Source: a virus. Taken from it: a DNA stretch of 22,579 nt. Made by a program: the position numbers and the translations under genes. Of the stretch, positions 5,324 through 21,764 are shown piece by piece. The notes beneath the pieces were generated by a model that saw only the letters and a program-made list of their open reading frames with translations, was not told the DNA's origin and did not search any database. Positions within the stretch are counted from its first letter, which is position 1. Every line of letters begins with the position of its first letter. The stretch spans positions 1-22,579 of IMG/VR virus record IMGVR_UViG_3300025769_000921; one strand, written 5' to 3'.

Positions 5324-6181
5324 ATGAAATATATTTTGGCCCTGTTAATCTTTATACTGTTCATAGGACTCAATATGGCACAAGAACCTAAAAAAATTCC
5401 AGATACTATTAAAGGTATGGCGGAAGTTTATAAATTTGTAGAAAAGAATTTAGGCTTAAATAAAGAGCAATGGGATATGTATCGCAATTCGATTGCTTTT
5501 AAAGAAAGCCAAGGCAATGTATGGGAAACAGAATATAAAGATTATGCTTACACTTATAATGAAATTGGTGGTTCTAAAAATCATTATGATGGTCGTTATC
5601 AAATGGGAAAAGCTGCAAAATTAGATGGCGCAAGACTTTTCAAATTAAAAGATGTTGGTCATACAGATGCAGATCGTCTAGCTTTTAGAAATGATCCATT
5701 ACTTCAAGAAAAATTATTTGCGGGTTATACCGTAGCTAATCATGGGTATATAAGTAAAGATGACAGTAAATATAAATATACTGCTGACTTTTATAATGCT
5801 TTGCCAGGCATGAGACAAAAGTTAGGATTTTTAGCGTATGCACATAATCAAGGTCAAGGGCCAGCTAAAAACTGGATAATGCGCGGAACTGAATCAAGAG
5901 ACGGTTTTGGCACAGACGGCAAAGTTTATTACAATAATTGGAAAGCCCATAACGCACAGCATGGTGCTGGTTTATGGAAAACTAAATCAACATCACAAAA
6001 TGATATGTTTATGGATAAAAATAATTTATGGAAAGGTTATAAACCCATAGATGTAGATAAAGGAGAAACTAAAGTTATTTTAAGAAAAACTTACGAAGGT
6101 GAAGACAAAGATGGCGTAACAGGACGGTATAAAGTAAAAGAAACACATACATTAAGAAATGAGGATGGGAGAGATATATGA
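5324..6181 (+). CDS. Exported lysozyme-like / lytic transglycosylase-like protein
   Basis: Two hundred and eighty-five residues. The N-terminus (MKYILALLIFILFIGLNMAQ) is a short basic start plus one hydrophobic segment, fitting a Sec signal peptide or signal anchor. Residues 50-180 resemble a lysozyme-like or transglycosylase core: FKESQGN with candidate catalytic Glu61, GRYQMGKAA (90-98), and FLAYAHNQGQGPAKNW (169-184), which recalls the AYNxG motif. The expected role is cleavage of peptidoglycan glycan strands, either for lysis or during entry. The C-terminal 70 residues are basic, polar and unassigned. AAGGA lies 12 bases before the ATG, farther than ideal. The gene sits between small virion-associated genes, and no holin was recognised nearby. 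The active site assignment is by motif similarity only. Confidence 0.65.
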   Translation: MKYILALLIFILFIGLNMAQEPKKIPDTIKGMAEVYKFVEKNLGLNKEQWDMYRNSIAFKESQGNVWETEYKDYAYTYNEIGGSKNHYDGRYQMGKAAKLDGARLFKLKDVGHTDADRLAFRNDPLLQEKLFAGYTVANHGYISKDDSKYKYTADFYNALPGMRQKLGFLAYAHNQGQGPAKNWIMRGTESRDGFGTDGKVYYNNWKAHNAQHGAGLWKTKSTSQNDMFMDKNNLWKGYKPIDVDKGETKVILRKTYEGEDKDGVTGRYKVKETHTLRNEDGRDI

Positions 6182-13745: not shown

Positions 13746-14420
13746 ATGGAAATTGTAGCAGCAGCAAAAACCGCATACGCAGCAGTTCAACCTTATTTTA
13801 GCTACATATCCGCTGCCAGCTCAATTATGAGCGGCTTACAATCGTGGCAGCAAGGATTAAACCAGTCTGCTGCAAGTAAAATTAGAGCTAAACAAGTTGA
13901 ATTAGAAGCTGATGTTAAAGCATTAAATAAAGAACAAGATGGCGTTCAACTTGCACGTAACCAACAACGTATTGCTGCATCACTTGTGGCAAGAGCAGCT
14001 GCTGGGAATACTGATCCATTTAGCGGTTCAGCTGCATTATTAGCACAATACAATGAATCACAACTTGGTAAAGATTTATACATGCTTAAACAACAAGCAG
14101 AGCGTTACAGAAGTTATGGCGACGTAATGAACGCGTTATTAACTGACGAAGCTAAGTCTTATGAAAAAGCTGGTTTTATGGGTTTTGTAGGCTCAATAGG
14201 TAAGGCTGCTTTTATTGTTGGACAAACTTCTACGCCAACTGACACGAATAGTTCTGATAGTTTAGTATCAGGGTATTACGAAGGGTATCCAACACAACGT
14301 CAATTACTTGATAATTACGAAGGCCCAACATCTATGTTTGAAACTAATATGTATGGCTTAACTAATACAGATTTAGAGGTAGGCCCAAGATTTGACAGTA
14401 ATGGATGGGGAGGCTACTAA
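13746..14420 (+). CDS. Internal virion (ejection) protein, gp14-like
   Basis: Two hundred and twenty-four residues; T7 gp14 has 196. The N-terminus is alanine-rich and hydrophobic (AYAAVQPYFSYISAASSIMSG, split here by turns), followed by a long charged helix (KIRAKQVELEADVKALNKE) and a region RNQQRIAASLVARAAAGNTD ending in PFSGSAALLAQYN. A second hydrophobic stretch is near 140-155 (GFMGFVGSIGKAAFIVG). This fits the small ejection protein that enters the outer membrane on infection. AGGAG (13735-13739) lies six bases before the ATG, which directly follows the gp12-like stop. Call rests mainly on size, composition and position. Confidence 0.75.
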   Translation: MEIVAAAKTAYAAVQPYFSYISAASSIMSGLQSWQQGLNQSAASKIRAKQVELEADVKALNKEQDGVQLARNQQRIAASLVARAAAGNTDPFSGSAALLAQYNESQLGKDLYMLKQQAERYRSYGDVMNALLTDEAKSYEKAGFMGFVGSIGKAAFIVGQTSTPTDTNSSDSLVSGYYEGYPTQRQLLDNYEGPTSMFETNMYGLTNTDLEVGPRFDSNGWGGY

Positions 14421-16795
14421 TGGCTAGATTACCTACCTATGAACGTCAAGTTATTAAAACCGATATTGGCCCAGCTGTTGGCACACAAAATCTTGAGGGC
14501 AATTTGCGTCAAAGCCAAGCTCTACAAAAATTATTTGACCAAGCAACTGCATGGGCTGGTGAAGAGGCCAATAAGTATGCAGTTGAAAAAGCCACACAAG
14601 ATTTTTTAGACCAGCCATTATCTGTTAAAGATTATGAAAACGCTTTGCGTAGCGGCACTGATCCCATTGAACAATTTAAACGTGGTGGTGTATCTTATAA
14701 TGACACTATTAAAAAACTACATGGCCATCAAGCTCGTATGGAGCTTGGTTCTCAAACACAAGCGTTACAAGAAAGCGTATTAGCGCGTGTAAAACGTGGG
14801 GAATTAACTGATCCAGTTCAAATTAAAAAAGAACTAGAATCTTCTGTTCGTGGTTATGGCAAAGCTGTGTCTGCTATTGATGTAGAACAAGGCATGAATT
14901 ATATTTCAACAGCTACCACACACTCTAAATATTATTACAAACTCGCTATGAAGGAGCTAGGTGATCAAGCCGAACTTCAAATGCAACTAACTGTTAATGG
15001 CATTATTGATCAATCTGCCCGTGGCTGGGAAACTTTTTTAGATGCAGAAAATGATCCAGGCATAATCTCCCTACACAGGCAATCGATTTTAAAAGAAGCA
15101 ATGGATACATTTAAGCTAACTGGCAAGGTGACAGAAAACTTAAATAAATTCAATGAAAAAATGGATAAAGTTTTGTTTGCTAAACTTGGCGACAAAATAG
15201 CTTTAGAAAATTTTCAAGACGGTACGACTAAAGATTCTTTAATGCAAGACATGCAATCAGGCAATAACTTTGGTATTTACACAAACTACTATAACAGTTT
15301 AACTGCTGATGAGAGAAATAAATTAGACACTGCTGTTAGCACAGCAATGAGCAATTTAGAACTGTCTAAATCAACGTCAGATGGTGTTACTACAAATCGC
15401 ATATCACTGGCGACCGAAGGGGTAAATCGAGGTGACGTTTTAGATTTAAGTGATTTAGACAAAATGCCTAAAACACAAACACAACAATTCAAATATGATC
15501 TAGCTGTTAAAAAAAATGACATAAACACACAATTACAAAGCACTACATTTGCAAGTAGAAAAGCCATTGAAGATGAAATTAATAAAACATATGAAGGCGC
15601 TGAAAACACAGAAATTAGAAATGAACTTATTAATCATTTTCGGACACAATTGCAAAATTTAGATAAAAAGATTGTTGATGATCCAGTTGCTTATGCAGCA
15701 AAACACCCCGCACTTAAAGGCCAAGTAAAATCTATTATGATTGATTCTAATAGGCTTAATGATCCAGATTACATTAGACAGCTTAAAGTAGATTTTGCTG
15801 ACCGACAAGCTGTAATACAAAAAATACGCACTGAGAATCAACTTCCTAATTTAACTTTATTTAGTAAAGATGAAGTTACTTATTACAAATCTCAATTTGC
15901 AGCTATATCTGCTGGCGAAGGATCATTAGATAGTAAAATAAATAAACAGATTGGATTGGCTACTACAATGGTAGACGCTTTTAAAGGCTCGTCTTATTTG
16001 TTGTTTAAAGAGTTTGATCCTAAATCACCTTACGCGCATATTGGTAATTTAGTATTAGACGCAATGGAATCACCTACACCTAACATAGAAGATGTTAAAT
16101 TGCTGGCAAAAGGCGATCTTATTGATCAAGGCTTGTTTGGTAAAATTAACTATGAGTTACCCGCAGAAGAGATGCGAGGCGTTAATGACGCTCTTGGCGA
16201 AGCATTTGATGGCCCAAATAAAGCTATTGTAGAAACCAATGCATTAAAAATTTATAAAGCGCTTAATGTACAAAATGCGGGAACATTTAACGACAAACTT
16301 TATGAAAAAGCTGTTGAGATTGCTGTTGGCACAAATGGTGAGTATGGCGGCATTGTTGAATATCAAGGCAAAAAAATGGTTATCCCGTCATCAATAAAAC
16401 GAGAAGATTTTACAAACGGGCTAATGAATTTTGTTAATTTGGAAGAATTAGCAATGCACCTTGTTGATAGTAACGGTGATCCTGTTGAAAATATTGGGCC
16501 AGGAAATTTACCTTACACACTTTCACAATTTAGAAATGCGCAAGTAGAATTTTATGACCGTAATACTGTAAAACTTACTGGTTCAAGAACTAGATTGTTT
16601 CAAGAAAACGATCAACTTGTTTTAACTAATCAAAACGGCGATCCACTTTATTTAGATATGGCTGGTTTATATCAATACATACTTTACAAAAACCCAGAAA
16701 TGGATCATGTTAGTTATGATCCAGTAAGACAAGACGTACCAGAGTCACAAGAAACAAATACAATGACCGACATGATTATTAGGTCAATGCAGTAA
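14420..16795 (+). CDS. Large internal virion (ejection) protein, gp15-like position
   Basis: Seven hundred and ninety-one residues from the ATG at 14420. GGGGAGG (14407-14413) lies six bases before it, and TAATG overlap with the previous gene supports this start over an ATG at 14405. The start MARLPTYERQV is one I know from internal virion proteins of marine podoviruses. The body is mainly helical, polar and without transmembrane segments or enzyme motifs, fitting a gp15-type core protein that helps form the DNA-translocation channel in the periplasm. I see no catalytic domain. Antisense open frames within it are not supported. Confidence 0.75.
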   Translation: MARLPTYERQVIKTDIGPAVGTQNLEGNLRQSQALQKLFDQATAWAGEEANKYAVEKATQDFLDQPLSVKDYENALRSGTDPIEQFKRGGVSYNDTIKKLHGHQARMELGSQTQALQESVLARVKRGELTDPVQIKKELESSVRGYGKAVSAIDVEQGMNYISTATTHSKYYYKLAMKELGDQAELQMQLTVNGIIDQSARGWETFLDAENDPGIISLHRQSILKEAMDTFKLTGKVTENLNKFNEKMDKVLFAKLGDKIALENFQDGTTKDSLMQDMQSGNNFGIYTNYYNSLTADERNKLDTAVSTAMSNLELSKSTSDGVTTNRISLATEGVNRGDVLDLSDLDKMPKTQTQQFKYDLAVKKNDINTQLQSTTFASRKAIEDEINKTYEGAENTEIRNELINHFRTQLQNLDKKIVDDPVAYAAKHPALKGQVKSIMIDSNRLNDPDYIRQLKVDFADRQAVIQKIRTENQLPNLTLFSKDEVTYYKSQFAAISAGEGSLDSKINKQIGLATTMVDAFKGSSYLLFKEFDPKSPYAHIGNLVLDAMESPTPNIEDVKLLAKGDLIDQGLFGKINYELPAEEMRGVNDALGEAFDGPNKAIVETNALKIYKALNVQNAGTFNDKLYEKAVEIAVGTNGEYGGIVEYQGKKMVIPSSIKREDFTNGLMNFVNLEELAMHLVDSNGDPVENIGPGNLPYTLSQFRNAQVEFYDRNTVKLTGSRTRLFQENDQLVLTNQNGDPLYLDMAGLYQYILYKNPEMDHVSYDPVRQDVPESQETNTMTDMIIRSMQ

Positions 16796-19233
16796 TGGGT
16801 AAGTTTTTTCCACAATACGAAGGGCGAGTTGCACCAGATAAAATGATGCCAGCTGGAGAGGCTGCTGAAGCGTTTGATACATCATTTGATTTTTCATACT
16901 ATCTTAATGCTTCAGATTCTAAAGCTAATTTAACTGCGCGGGTATTACAACCGTACCTTGATGAGATTCAATCTAAAACAGGGACTAAATTTGTCAATCC
17001 AGGCCATGTATGGAGGGGAGGACGAGATTTGCCTTTAGGCGGCGAGGCTGATATTTACCCTTCTCTTGCTTTTGACACCCCCGTTGATGTTGATCCTAGA
17101 AGTCAAGAGGAACGATTTGATTCTGCTTTTGACGAAATTGTTACTTACATACAAGAAACAAAAGACTTGTATGATTCAGACTCTAAAATTCATCACCTTA
17201 CTCCTATGAGACTACAAAGTTTGCTTGTAGAAGAAGCACAAAATATACGTAATGCTTATTTATTTAATGACGAAAGGGCGTTTGGCTGGGGAGATATTGG
17301 CACGGATGTAGCTGCTGGATTTACCGCTGCCGCTGTTGATCCAATTAATATGGCTGCTGTACTTACTCCTTTTGCATTAGGCCCTGGACTTGCACAAACT
17401 GTTATTCAGCGTCTAGGATCAGAGCTAGTATTAGCATTAGGCTCAGAAGTTGTTATTCAGTCAGACATTGAAAAACTTTACAAAGAAGTAGGTTTGGAAT
17501 ATACCGATGAACAATTTTGGACAAACGTATTTGCTGCGGGTGGTGGCTCATTATTATTAGGTGGAGCAATAGAAACATTATTAGCGTCCCCTAAAATTGT
17601 TAAAGACACAAAAATCAAGATTGTTAATTATTTGGATAAACGCCAACAACAAAAACAAGGAACACAATCAACTCGAGTAGAAGAAATTTTAGATGCTGCG
17701 GATACAGCAGACACTATAAACAAACAAACATTGGATCAAAACCCATTAGCAGACGATCCTAATGATGTTAAGTTTCAGCAACATATGATGGAGGCTAAAC
17801 AATCAATTATTAATGAAGATTTTTCAGAGCTTGAGTTTGCTGATCAAATGAAGATTATTGACGAGCTGCATCATGATAAAAATAACCTTGCTTTTACTAT
17901 TCTTAATCCAGAGGACATAGATTTTGATGCAAAGTTATTTCAGTTTAAAGCGGGTGCTGATGAAAAAGGATTGTTAGATACTCTTATGGGGGTAGAAAGA
18001 TGGGACAATACTTTTTCTGGAAATGTGGTTGTTTTTGAAAAAGCTGACGGCACACGAATTATTGCTGATGGGCATCAACGATTAGGTCTAGCTAAACGTC
18101 TATTAGCAGATAAAAATTACAAAGGGCCTAAGCCAAGACTGTCGGCTATTGTATTTAAAGAAAGTGACGGATTTACGCCAGAGTTTGTAAGAGTTCAAGC
18201 GGGTGCAAAAAATTTAGCCGAAGGATCAGGTTCTATTGTAGATGCAGCCAGATTGTATAAAGTTGCCCCAGCATTTTTAGAAAAAATGTTACCTCCCAAT
18301 TCAAGACTTCTTAAATATGGTCGTGGTATGGCTGCCTTACATGATGATGTATTAAGGGCGGTTGATGCTGGTGTTGTTCCAGGACGCTATGCAAGTTTTA
18401 TTGGCCAATATTTTACTGACAAAGCAGAGCAATTAGCTGTATTAGATGTATTAGCTAAAGCTAAACCCGCTAATCTAATGGAAGCTGAATCTATTGTTGC
18501 AAACGTAAAAATGGCTGGTTTTCAAAAAGCTGATCAAGCTGGTTTATTTAGCGACGACATGATTGCTGCTAGCTTATTTAAAGAACGTGCTAAAATTTTA
18601 TCAAGCACTTTAGGCGGTATGCAAAGTAATAAAAAATTACTCAATACACTTGTTGAAAAATCAAACATTATTGAGCAATATGGAAACAAACTTAACAAAC
18701 TTAATAACGCAGAGAAAAAGGATTTATATGGCCAAATTATCGAAACAATCAAACACAACGCAAACAACGCTGGCCCAATCGCAGACGAACTTACAGCCGT
18801 CACCGAGCGGTTTGGCCGTGGAGAAATCGATCTTGCCACAGCCACAAAACAATTTGAGCAAGCTGTCAGAAGACGAATTACATCAGGCGATCTTAGGGGG
18901 ATACCAGTTAGCCAAGCTAGAGTCTTTAATGACAATGAGGCGCAGACTAATTCAGCTACAAAACCAGGACAGCAGCTCAACAAAGAACAGCTAGATAAAT
19001 ATAACGATGATATTTTTGGCAATAAATTAGATGAAGATATTGAGGCGCTTAATAAAGAAGTTAAAGACATTTATGATGATCTTGACAAAAGTGGCTACAA
19101 AGACATTAAAAAAGAACAAATAATGGAAGTAGAAAATATAGACGGCACAATTGTACAGAAAAAATCTATTGATGAAATGACTGAAGAAATGGATTTTTCG
19201 GATGCTGCTATAAAAGAATTTAAGGACTGTTAA
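16795..19233 (+). CDS. Large ejection protein carrying a ParB-like domain
   Basis: Eight hundred and twelve residues, between two other large ejection-type genes. Residues 1-150 are polar. Hydrophobic segments lie at about 166-203 (AAGFTAAAVDPINMAAVLTP) and 245-264 (FAAGGGSLLLGGAIETLLAS). Residues 373-480 resemble a ParB/sulfiredoxin-type fold: a strand with DAKLFQFKAG, GNVVVFEKADGTRIIADGH, then HQRLGLAKRLL and KPRLSAIVFKE. A ParB-like helical follow-up (VQAGAKNLAEGSGSIVDAAR, about 467-486) comes next. Such domains occur in phage and plasmid polyvalent proteins including the DdrB type, thought to enter cells with the DNA. The C-terminal 200 residues are helical and charged. Starts and ends in TAATG overlaps. 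Ejection with DNA is inferred from position. Confidence 0.7.
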   Translation: MGKFFPQYEGRVAPDKMMPAGEAAEAFDTSFDFSYYLNASDSKANLTARVLQPYLDEIQSKTGTKFVNPGHVWRGGRDLPLGGEADIYPSLAFDTPVDVDPRSQEERFDSAFDEIVTYIQETKDLYDSDSKIHHLTPMRLQSLLVEEAQNIRNAYLFNDERAFGWGDIGTDVAAGFTAAAVDPINMAAVLTPFALGPGLAQTVIQRLGSELVLALGSEVVIQSDIEKLYKEVGLEYTDEQFWTNVFAAGGGSLLLGGAIETLLASPKIVKDTKIKIVNYLDKRQQQKQGTQSTRVEEILDAADTADTINKQTLDQNPLADDPNDVKFQQHMMEAKQSIINEDFSELEFADQMKIIDELHHDKNNLAFTILNPEDIDFDAKLFQFKAGADEKGLLDTLMGVERWDNTFSGNVVVFEKADGTRIIADGHQRLGLAKRLLADKNYKGPKPRLSAIVFKESDGFTPEFVRVQAGAKNLAEGSGSIVDAARLYKVAPAFLEKMLPPNSRLLKYGRGMAALHDDVLRAVDAGVVPGRYASFIGQYFTDKAEQLAVLDVLAKAKPANLMEAESIVANVKMAGFQKADQAGLFSDDMIAASLFKERAKILSSTLGGMQSNKKLLNTLVEKSNIIEQYGNKLNKLNNAEKKDLYGQIIETIKHNANNAGPIADELTAVTERFGRGEIDLATATKQFEQAVRRRITSGDLRGIPVSQARVFNDNEAQTNSATKPGQQLNKEQLDKYNDDIFGNKLDEDIEALNKEVKDIYDDLDKSGYKDIKKEQIMEVENIDGTIVQKKSIDEMTEEMDFSDAAIKEFKDC

Positions 19234-21764
19234 TGGCTAAAGACTTTTCATGTATTCAAAACAATAGTCGATTTTCTGATGCTGAGAAAAAACACGGCGA
19301 AGAACTTTATCAGCAGTATATGTTGCGTTTTGGTGGCGCATCTGACGAAGCTATTGAAGCTACTGAAAAAGCCTTAACTGTCCAGCAAAAAATGAGAAAG
19401 TTAGACAACCTTCGCGCAGCTAAAGTATTTGCAGAAAGATTGTTAGATATGGAGGAATTTGTTCGTGGCAACAATCGGTACGAAGCCGCTGTACTATCTT
19501 TTATTGCGCCAGATTATCAAGGCCACCGTAGATTTCTAAATTTAGAAAACGAACAAGACGCAATTAAAGGAATGCTTTTAGCTAATATGAGCGAATTTGT
19601 TATGCAGTATCGCAAGCGTGGTGTTACTGGCAAAACTGGTTCTGGGTTTCAAGGCTTTGGAAAAAATAAAGTGCCTATTGAGGATGTAATAAGAGAGTCA
19701 GCTGGTATTGATACTGGTAATCCACAAGCTAAAATGCTAGGTAAAATGTGGAATGAGACAGCGGAAATGGCGCGTTTATTAAAAAATAAATATGGCGCTC
19801 ATATCCCTAAAAATGAAAGTTGGTTTTTCCCGCAAAGTCATTCACAAGGACGAATAAGAGCATTACCAGGAAGTTTTGACGAAAAGTTTAGAACATGGCG
19901 TGATTTTATTTTACCTAAATTAGATACTGAACGTATTACCAGCTATAAAACTGGACAACCTATTACCGATTTAGAGTTAGAAGTTTTACTAAAAGATATA
20001 TTTGAAAACATTGTTAATGGATCACAAACACAAAGCAAAGGCTGGTTAAAAACCATGTCTAACCATCGGGTATTACAATTTAGGACTGCTGAAGATTTAC
20101 TTGCATACCATAAAAGATTTGGCGAAGGCGACATTGCTATTAATATGTTTAACTATTTAGACCAAATGTCGCATGATATTGCTGAACTTAAAGTATTAGG
20201 GCCTAAACCAGAACAAACATTACGCTTATTGCAAGAAAAAGCAATTAAAGGCATGCGTAGTCATGGTGGGTACAAAGAATCAAAAGTTACGTCAATGGCT
20301 GAAAATATTAGAAATCACTATGATGTATTTAAACGACGACAACTTATTCCTCAATATGAATGGTTAGCAGAGGGTGGATCAACTGTGCGTAACTATGCAA
20401 CCGCAGCTTATCTTGGCTCAGCTGTTTTATCAGCTATGGGTGATTTTGGCACACAAATGAAAGTAGCTATGCAATTAGGCGAAAGTAAATGGTCTCCACT
20501 TAAAAAACATTTAGCTTTCACATTAGACATTTTAGCCCCAATGAAACGTGCCGAACGTCAGCAATGGCTTGTTGATAATGGCATTGTTATAGATAGTTTT
20601 ATTAACTTTTCTCAAAAAAAAGCTAAGTTTACAGATGACCTTGGGGGATCACCATTATCACAGACAGTCTCTGACGTTGTGCTTAGATCGTCGGGACTTA
20701 CAGGATTTACTGATGGTGGTCGAGCAGCTAACGCAACACTTATTATGCAAACATTTGCTAGAAGCAACGGTCAGAAATTAGCACAACTTGATCCAGAGTT
20801 TGTCAAAATACTTAAAACTTATGGGTTAGATAAACACTGGGATGATGTATTGTCAAAAGTAACGCCAGAAACATTCCAAGGCTCTAAATATATAACTTAC
20901 AAAAGTATACAAAATCATCCTGGCAACGCCGATGAAATGTTTGAATTAGCAACAAGCTATTTAGCTATGATCAAAAATTTACAAAACGATGCTGTTATTA
21001 CTAATAGCATTAAAACTATGGCAAAAATGTATGGCTCAACCAAACGTGGCTCATTAATTGGTGAGTTAGGTAAATCAGCGTTTATGTTTAAAAGTTTTTC
21101 AGTTGGAATTGTAATACAACATCTTATGCGCATGCTTTTCGAATCGCCAGATATAATGAGAACAAAACATTTTGGCATTAACTGGAATTCTAAAATAGCT
21201 AGAACCTTAAATGTTGGAAAGTTTGTTGTCACCATGACAATTTTAGGGGGCATCGCAGAACAAATACATCAATTAAAATCTGGGCGCGATCCAAAAGATA
21301 TGAAGACGGGTGATTTTGCCATAAGCGCACTTACTCGTGGTGGCGGCTTAGGGTTTATAGGAGATATTATTACCAATAATGCTATGGGTTATTCCTTGCA
21401 GTTGCTTGGGCCGTTAGGTAATTTTGCTAGCGATGCTTTTAATATGGGCGTTGTTAATCCTTATAAGTCAGCATTTGGTGATGAAGATGTTCCTTACACA
21501 TATGATGCTTATAAAATGTTAAAAAAATATATGCCTGGACAATCATTGTGGTGGGGACAGTTAGCTTTTAATCGTTTAGTTTTAGAAAACATTGCAACTG
21601 CCATTGATCCTCAAATTAGTAGAAAAATTAGATCGACTACCAGACGGCAAGAGTCTAAGAACAAACAGAAGTATTGGTGGAAACCAGGCGATTTAGCACC
21701 AAAACGCGCTCCAGACATGACTAAAGCTAATTTGGGTGAATTATTGACAATAGATGGGGATTAA
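19233..21764 (+). CDS. Large internal virion (ejection) protein, gp16-like position
   Basis: Eight hundred and forty-three residues, last of the ejection cluster and just before the tail fibre, as T7 gp16 is. The first 370 residues are helical and charged. Hydrophobic or glycine-rich segments follow near 388-402 (YATAAYLGSAVLSAM), 664-675 (FVVTMTILGGIA) and 702-741 (including GGGLGFIGDIITNNAMGYSL). The end has WWGQLAFNRLVLENI, then AIDPQ, RKIRSTTRRQ and KYWWKPGD with APKRAPD, a closing pattern I recall from large podovirus internal proteins. No lytic transglycosylase motif is visible, unlike T7 gp16. Likely role: membrane-spanning part of the DNA-ejection channel. Confidence 0.7.
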   Translation: MAKDFSCIQNNSRFSDAEKKHGEELYQQYMLRFGGASDEAIEATEKALTVQQKMRKLDNLRAAKVFAERLLDMEEFVRGNNRYEAAVLSFIAPDYQGHRRFLNLENEQDAIKGMLLANMSEFVMQYRKRGVTGKTGSGFQGFGKNKVPIEDVIRESAGIDTGNPQAKMLGKMWNETAEMARLLKNKYGAHIPKNESWFFPQSHSQGRIRALPGSFDEKFRTWRDFILPKLDTERITSYKTGQPITDLELEVLLKDIFENIVNGSQTQSKGWLKTMSNHRVLQFRTAEDLLAYHKRFGEGDIAINMFNYLDQMSHDIAELKVLGPKPEQTLRLLQEKAIKGMRSHGGYKESKVTSMAENIRNHYDVFKRRQLIPQYEWLAEGGSTVRNYATAAYLGSAVLSAMGDFGTQMKVAMQLGESKWSPLKKHLAFTLDILAPMKRAERQQWLVDNGIVIDSFINFSQKKAKFTDDLGGSPLSQTVSDVVLRSSGLTGFTDGGRAANATLIMQTFARSNGQKLAQLDPEFVKILKTYGLDKHWDDVLSKVTPETFQGSKYITYKSIQNHPGNADEMFELATSYLAMIKNLQNDAVITNSIKTMAKMYGSTKRGSLIGELGKSAFMFKSFSVGIVIQHLMRMLFESPDIMRTKHFGINWNSKIARTLNVGKFVVTMTILGGIAEQIHQLKSGRDPKDMKTGDFAISALTRGGGLGFIGDIITNNAMGYSLQLLGPLGNFASDAFNMGVVNPYKSAFGDEDVPYTYDAYKMLKKYMPGQSLWWGQLAFNRLVLENIATAIDPQISRKIRSTTRRQESKNKQKYWWKPGDLAPKRAPDMTKANLGELLTIDGD

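Follow-up and report, generated by a model that had tools for sequence, protein, structure and literature searches.

What might a ParB-like domain be doing within the ejection genes of a short-tailed phage? This question is raised by a stretch of 22,579 nucleotides from a marine short-tailed phage (IMG/VR record IMGVR_UViG_3300025769_000921; hereafter the window), in which four genes are closely packed and the third encodes an 812-residue protein, named protein A (Table 1). An earlier note had described a ParB/DdrB-type domain in this protein and suggested that it is delivered with the phage DNA. The reading favored here, to which we assign a probability of roughly 0.6, is that protein A and its downstream neighbor, protein B, are the two halves of a split gp16-type ejection protein, that the halves would be stapled together by cysteines on ejection, and that the ParB module of A would hold DNA.

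The gene order in the late operon, consisting of gp14-like, gp15-like, A and B genes, is that of a gp16-type ejection module. Both the gp15-like/A and the A/B junctions are TAATG overlaps, with the start of A lying within the stop of the gp15-like gene and the start of B within the stop of A. Protein B is homologous to epsilon15 gp17 and phiV10 p20, and has no meaningful match in Pfam and no relative in the PDB; a suggestion that it carries the LPD38 domain of Ruegeria phage 45A6 was not supported, given the lack of a meaningful Pfam match. A promoter scan found nothing above shuffled sequences, and terminator-like sites were only slightly more numerous than in shuffles (9 versus 5.2, sd 2.6). 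An antisense open reading frame at 18534-19070 was rejected as a reading-frame shadow. Elsewhere in the window, a 285-aa protein encoded between the terminase and portal genes (5324-6181) matches only part of PHROG 5867, an endolysin profile of 1029 positions. The fibre gene (21790 onward) is cut by the contig end and starts like a 1379-aa fibre-like protein of a close relative (L007:12927-17066), in which NTAVG-type repeats occur by the dozen and a DRRLKKNI motif resembles that of intramolecular-chaperone (S74-type) C-termini.

Table 1. Coordinates of the ejection genes of the window and of the predicted parts of proteins A and B.
Feature	Position	Strand	Remarks
gp14-like internal virion protein	13746..14420	+	PHROG 418; 224 aa; 0 Cys
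gp15-like ejection protein	14405..16795	+	gp15 position; 796 aa; 0 Cys
Protein A, putative split gp16-type ejection protein with predicted ParB-fold module	16795..19233	+	812 aa; sole Cys C812
N-terminal core of A, ~aa 1-354	16795..17857	+	common to the ParB-less ejection proteins phiVC8 p18, HTVC100P gp45 and Vibrio phage 1.182.O
Predicted ParB-fold NTP-binding-type N-domain, ~aa 365-480	17887..18234	+	predicted structure match
ADGHQRL, aa 424-430, GxxR P-motif (ParB Box II)	18064..18084	+	Gly426 and Arg429 invariant; His427 at the Glu of GERR
Asn473, at a site resembling that of the Asn in ParB Box III ENxxR	18211..18213	+	invariant in 46/46; placement inferred from the model
Predicted ParB/Noc-like helix-turn-helix DNA-binding-type domain, ~aa 481-574	18235..18516	+	structural matches 6y93_A, 4umk_B
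Helical bundle after the helix-turn-helix, ~aa 595-692	18577..18870	+	family-wide conservation; no specific match
Short C-terminal tail of A	18871..19233	+	Zeta-kinase/Tas1-like cartridge of homologues absent
Codon of Cys812	19228..19230	+	only Cys of A
Protein B, PHROG 684 virion structural protein	19233..21764	+	E 7e-124; 843 aa; sole Cys C7
Codon of Cys7	19251..19253	+	only Cys of B

Searches of Pfam, NCBIfam and PDB sequences returned no significant or meaningful match for protein A, and its one significant match among Pfam, PHROG and NCBIfam was PHROG 10691 (1.5e-40), a 3925-position profile of giant proteins of unknown function. A PDB profile match to Adhesin A (E 0.012) was dismissed as a coiled-coil chance match in the helical bundle of A. 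Pfam ParB_N (PF02195) matched neither the window nor any of 36 family members, among which no other Pfam ParB-type model matched either. Structure prediction gave a different answer. An AlphaFold2 model of residues 353-692, built from an alignment of 46 loci (mean pLDDT 86.8), comprises strands at 367-370, 410-415, 421-425 and 449-455, followed by helices. Foldseek searches of the PDB with this model ranked Noc first (7nfu, E 4.9e-5), followed by ParB (6t1f, E 4.0e-4; 6sdk) and then KorB and Spo0J; the top matches were all of the ParB fold, with sulfiredoxin weaker. Alignment to 7nfu with VIA-align 2 covered 194 residues (Z 9.9, rmsd 4.8), and the helix-turn-helix (HTH) part gave separate matches with Z 7.5-8.3, one to 6y93_A over 97 residues at rmsd 3.5 and one to 4umk_B over 94 residues at rmsd 3.3. 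An independently built full-length model of A recovered the same top PDB matches, and in BFVD the module matched phage Spo0J/ParB proteins and polyvalent proteins. Long-helix matches from VIA (CHMP4B, XaxA, receptors) reflect the helical bundle of A only and were discarded. The ParB-like domain of the earlier note, with ADGHQRL at residues 424-430 and a strand-rich segment preceding a helical region, is hence corroborated by Foldseek, VIA and invariant motif residues, and the model has the ParB/Srx fold at 373-450 whose absence, according to that note, would have told against it. That note had missed that the predicted match covers the ParB HTH in addition to the NTP-binding domain, and that the ejection-protein family also exists without a ParB module.

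Residue conservation was consistent with this assignment while also marking a departure from canonical ParB, for which GERR and ENxxR motifs have been described (PMC12704722). Residues D425, G426, H427, Q428, R429, N473 and D483 are invariant across all 46 aligned homologues; R429 is the arginine of GxxR, and in the model N473 appears to be placed like the asparagine of ENxxR. Conversely, the glutamate of GERR is replaced by His427 in 46/46 homologues, and the glutamate position of ENxxR (472) is occupied by lysine in 37 of them. Given the replaced glutamates, NTP binding is plausible but CTP hydrolysis doubtful; NTP hydrolysis may thus have been lost, and we do not class A as a canonical CTP-hydrolysing ParB. 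What the module possesses, as predicted, is the fold of the NTP-binding N-domain, the GxxR P-motif and a following HTH, as in ParB/Noc-type proteins, and the HTH domain may bind DNA. Compared with Noc, ParB and KorB (7nfu, 6t1f, 6sdk, 8qa9), protein A therefore shares a predicted domain arrangement, GxxR and a Box III-like Asn at ~15-19% identity, but is embedded in an ejection protein, with neither a ParA partner seen nor a ParB C-terminal dimerisation domain recognised.

A scan of IMG/VR identified 377 viral-contig stretches encoding a relative which, together with the invariant motif and the exclusively ParB-fold top matches, argues that the resemblance to ParB is more than chance. Full-length orthologues of A in IMG/VR share 47% and 31% identity, and among 104 unique loci, 76 possess both a gp15-like gene upstream and a PHROG 684 gene downstream, most others ending at contig ends. 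In GTDB genomes the module turned up in 43 contigs, chiefly from Alphaproteobacteria and probably representing prophages. Among GenBank phages, tblastn located the module (aa 350-692) in Dunaliella-associated virus SI2, which encodes a 792-aa homologue of A in the same gene order as the window, in the P-SCSP1 cyanophages (within a 2563-aa chain), in S31-C1 (1484 aa), and in Ruegeria phage 45A6. The 45A6 giant, which corresponds to PHROG 10691, shares the module at 35% identity over 39% of A, but is a single 3912-aa chain that also bears LPD38, helicase, methyltransferase and GNAT domains and has neither a cysteine nor a separate B. The polyvalent-protein theme raised in the earlier note is in this respect supported. 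The ParB module additionally matches the C-terminal part of a long portal family (PHROG 21, profile positions ~1017-1349; E down to 1.5e-34), and would thus appear to be joined to the portal protein in some other phages.

The N-terminal core of A revealed what kind of protein carries the module. An HMM of A, mainly through profile positions ~70-330, picks up the protein encoded upstream of PHROG 684 genes in phages lacking the ParB module, including phiVC8 p18 (390 aa, 59 bits), HTVC100P gp45 (489 aa, 36 bits), gene 16 of Vibrio phage 1.182.O (34 bits) and the corresponding protein of scaffold_308. Epsilon15 gp16 and phiV10 p19 were not recognised by the A-core HMM, and their equivalence to A rests on position, homology of B and the cysteine described below. 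The module was absent from 49 pelagiphage- and phiVC8-type A-B pairs. Since the A core is common to ParB-less ejection proteins, the ParB module looks to have been inserted into a split gp16-type ejection protein. Within the core, residues ~172-264 comprise Ala/Gly-rich hydrophobic stretches (best 19-residue mean hydropathy 1.52). Epsilon15 (gp16/gp17), phiV10 (p19/p20), phiVC8 (p18/p19), Skadi-4 and HTVC100P all share with the window gene position, a homologous B and a pair of single cysteines at the chain ends, with A-core homology extending to phiVC8 and HTVC100P; the A proteins of these phages differ in being shorter (390-634 aa) and in lacking a ParB module. T7 gp16 resembles A and B in its position after gp14 and gp15, its large size and its freedom from internal cysteines, but is one 1318-aa chain without a ParB module, and its HMM signal to B is only marginal (E 8e-4, from a small set). 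As the earlier note stated, T7 encodes nothing comparable between gp15 and gp16, and the position given there for A is right, whereas its view of A as an additional gene gives way to that of a modified, split gp16-type protein.

Behind the module, homologues fall into two length classes of 127-190 or 406-662 aa, with the window representing the short form (143 aa). The long forms carry one of two enzyme folds in a common slot. A Zeta toxin kinase domain (PF06414) was found in 12 of 36 scanned homologues (best 5.6e-36), lodged after the ParB module and ahead of the C-terminal Cys tail (e.g. L128:5984-9415, L096:5867-9253, L019 and L145). A RelA/SpoT-fold cartridge occupies the same slot in others (L009:10200-10814, L010, L023, L163, L105 and L027), with Tas1 as its closest structure (6ox6, E 1.3e-15) and no match to Pfam RelA_SpoT. 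Several effector domains are thus found in the chains of relatives, either in 45A6 or as Zeta-kinase or Tas1-like cargo, whereas protein A of the window carries the ParB module only.

This company suggests a serious rival for the role of the module, namely that it acts early as a DdrB-like effector, an NTP-regulated nuclease or NTP sensor directed against host defence or host DNA, with the ejection protein being only the ride. DdrB-like ParB domains of polyvalent proteins have been described by Iyer et al. 2017 (PMC5512222), who proposed for them NTP-regulated DNase activity or NTP sensing, and the module of A occurs both in polyvalent giants that include helicase, methyltransferase and GNAT domains and beside Zeta-kinase and Tas1-like cargo in close relatives. 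With the P1 DdrB-like domains it shares the ParB/Srx superfamily, occurrence in phage polyvalent proteins and the conserved Arg in GxxR. The features defined in PMC5512222 comprise an Asp/Asn that closes a core strand plus a conserved Arg, and an extra helix with a conserved Tyr; D425 of A ends strand 421-425 before GHQR, a strand that may or may not correspond to strand 2 of that description. Protein A departs from the DdrB-like domains in its clearly present HTH-type domain and in its gp16-type carrier. The module is not SPECIFICALLY DdrB: its predicted structural match takes in the HTH as well, which is the arrangement of Noc and ParB. An hhalign comparison of family alignment A7 with P1 DdrB yielded a probability of 1.7, but R751 KorB, a true structural relative, failed likewise, so that this sequence comparison is without power and carries no weight. 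Of the ParB/DdrB-type assignment in the earlier note, the ParB fold hence stands, while the match is to Noc/ParB with an HTH, with no specific P1 DdrB kinship shown. The retained ParB-type HTH suggests the holding of DNA and not a free enzyme, no nuclease motif was identified in the module, and nearly every member keeps the module, whereas the cargo that follows it differs, as would be expected of a structural or positioning part. We therefore regard the effector role as on balance unlikely. Delivery of A with the phage DNA is plausible, given gene position and family; the nuclease, CTPase or anti-restriction role also raised for the module would be conjectural. Our preferred reading, with the module holding DNA as part of the ejection apparatus, is further shaped by an unexpected feature of both A and B.

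Each of these long proteins possesses exactly one cysteine, and the two cysteines lie at the ends that face each other in gene order: C812 is the last residue of A, and C7 is near the start of B. Exactly one cysteine, within the last 5 residues, was found in 84 of 91 unique complete A proteins, and exactly one within the first 12 residues in 73 of 82 B proteins, while 91 of 92 gp15-like family members have none. The pattern extends well beyond the ParB-bearing phages. In epsilon15 it is represented by C629 of the 634-aa gp16 and C5 of gp17, and the same end pair occurs in phiV10, phiVC8, Tr60_Ab31, Skadi-4, HTVC100P and Vibrio phage 1.182.O. The C-terminal cysteine is present in 44/44 A proteins of pelagiphage- and phiVC8-type contigs, and the end pair in six further divergent prophage pairs and in every intact split pair of the GTDB contigs, where some A proteins have an extra N-terminal cysteine. 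Pooling these sets, cysteines near both ends were found in 161 of 168 A-B pairs, and in 13 of 15 clusters at 35% identity. In S31-C1 the end pair consists of C1484 in A and C3 in B, the latter protein being missed by the PHROG-684-type HMM, which suggests that this pair may represent a second, independent split.

Seven pairs lack one or both end cysteines. One (L265:6759-15197, from the alphaproteobacterial MAG Dive100_bin2.65) is a natural fusion, the only clear one found in the A/B family, combining the A core, ParB module, further domains and B in a single 2812-aa chain with no cysteine; no relatives of it were found in viral contigs. Two have shortened B reading frames (L040, L203), two have another reading frame between A and B (L278, L145), and one has a short upstream reading frame and six cysteines in B (L291). 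The last, L288, encodes a divergent 830-aa B with no cysteine, preceded by a reading frame that is no recognisable A. Cysteines are also absent from the fused giants of P-SCSP1g (2563 aa) and 45A6, and from the control ejection proteins T7 gp15 and gp16, phiKMV gp36 and gp37, P-SSP7 gp15 and gp16, P22 gp7, gp20 and gp16, and LUZ24 gp50 and gp51; some other fused giants (L263, L279, L282) have scattered cysteines. The presence of end cysteines in split pairs, and their absence from fused or single chains, fits a bond that only split chains would require, and we infer from this distribution that C812 of A and C7 of B would form an inter-chain disulfide. As the virion is assembled in the reducing cytoplasm, such a disulfide would have to form late.

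The end cysteines might serve purposes other than an A-B bond, such as contacts within homodimers or homo-oligomers, attachment of a metal or lipid, or a signal for export or proteolysis, and a single cysteine per chain would indeed suit homodimers as well. Homodimer, metal or lipid roles, however, predict neither the placement of cysteines at facing ends nor their joint loss, which is what was observed in the natural A-B fusion and in single-chain gp16s. Furthermore, the end pair is kept across families below 35% identity, and the B of L288, without a recognisable A upstream, has no cysteine. We consider these other roles unlikely, and retain the disulfide between A and B as the preferred reading of the end pair.

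A function of the ParB module in genome maintenance, such as partition or a plasmid-like prophage state, with its location among ejection genes due to chance, would accord with a ParB fold with HTH and with the many relatives in alphaproteobacterial genomes (probably prophages), but is extremely improbable, given that the module always lies within an ejection-type gene of the late operon without a start of its own, that no ParA was noticed beside it, and that placing the module within a virion-type protein would be an ill-suited way to obtain a partition factor.

The reading of A and B as stapled halves would operate as follows. A gp16-type ejection (internal virion) protein would be split in two, with A representing the upstream half and B, encoded immediately after it, the other. 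Both would most likely leave the capsid together with the gp14- and gp15-like proteins, and cross the tail poorly folded and free of stray cysteines. In an oxidising place, either the periplasm or the matured virion, C812 of A and C7 of B would then form a disulfide, restoring one gp16-like chain. The ParB module, on the far side of this chain and at or behind the inner-membrane exit, could hold DNA, which may be the incoming phage genome, with the module acting as a nucleotide-gated clamp or ratchet, or may be host DNA. The versions of this chain in sister phages, bearing Zeta-kinase or Tas1-like cargo, would serve as carriers of effector domains. A more general formulation, to which we give an even chance, is that a large class of podoviruses, including epsilon15, has a gp16-type protein that is split, with one cysteine at each facing end and a disulfide rejoining the halves during infection, while fused or single-chain versions are cysteine-free, and that the class represented by the window has made the upstream half a carrier of a ParB/Noc-type DNA-clamp module and of exchangeable Zeta-kinase or Tas1-like effectors.

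Of the two features, we regard the cysteine end pair as the more interesting result, ahead of a ParB-bearing ejection protein. It appears to be undescribed in the searchable literature: the words "cysteine" and "disulfide" are absent from a review of ejection proteins (PMC8954989), from papers on the PhiM1 ejectosome, PhiGT1 and epsilon15 (PMC12391199), and from the Peru-2 preprint, and a literature search on podophage ejection proteins and disulfides, which did not extend to subscription papers, returned nothing relevant. A fixed cysteine staple makes a sharp prediction about how the ejection proteins of podoviruses, once outside the capsid, come together again as a trans-envelope channel; sequence searches of the PDB gave no relative for ejection proteins of the A/B type. 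The presence of a ParB-type, putatively DNA-binding module on an ejection protein suggests how incoming DNA might be retained where it emerges from the membrane, and through the cargo slot, with its Zeta kinase or Tas1-like alarmone-synthetase fold, enzymes of bacterial toxins become part of the injection apparatus in common aquatic phages.
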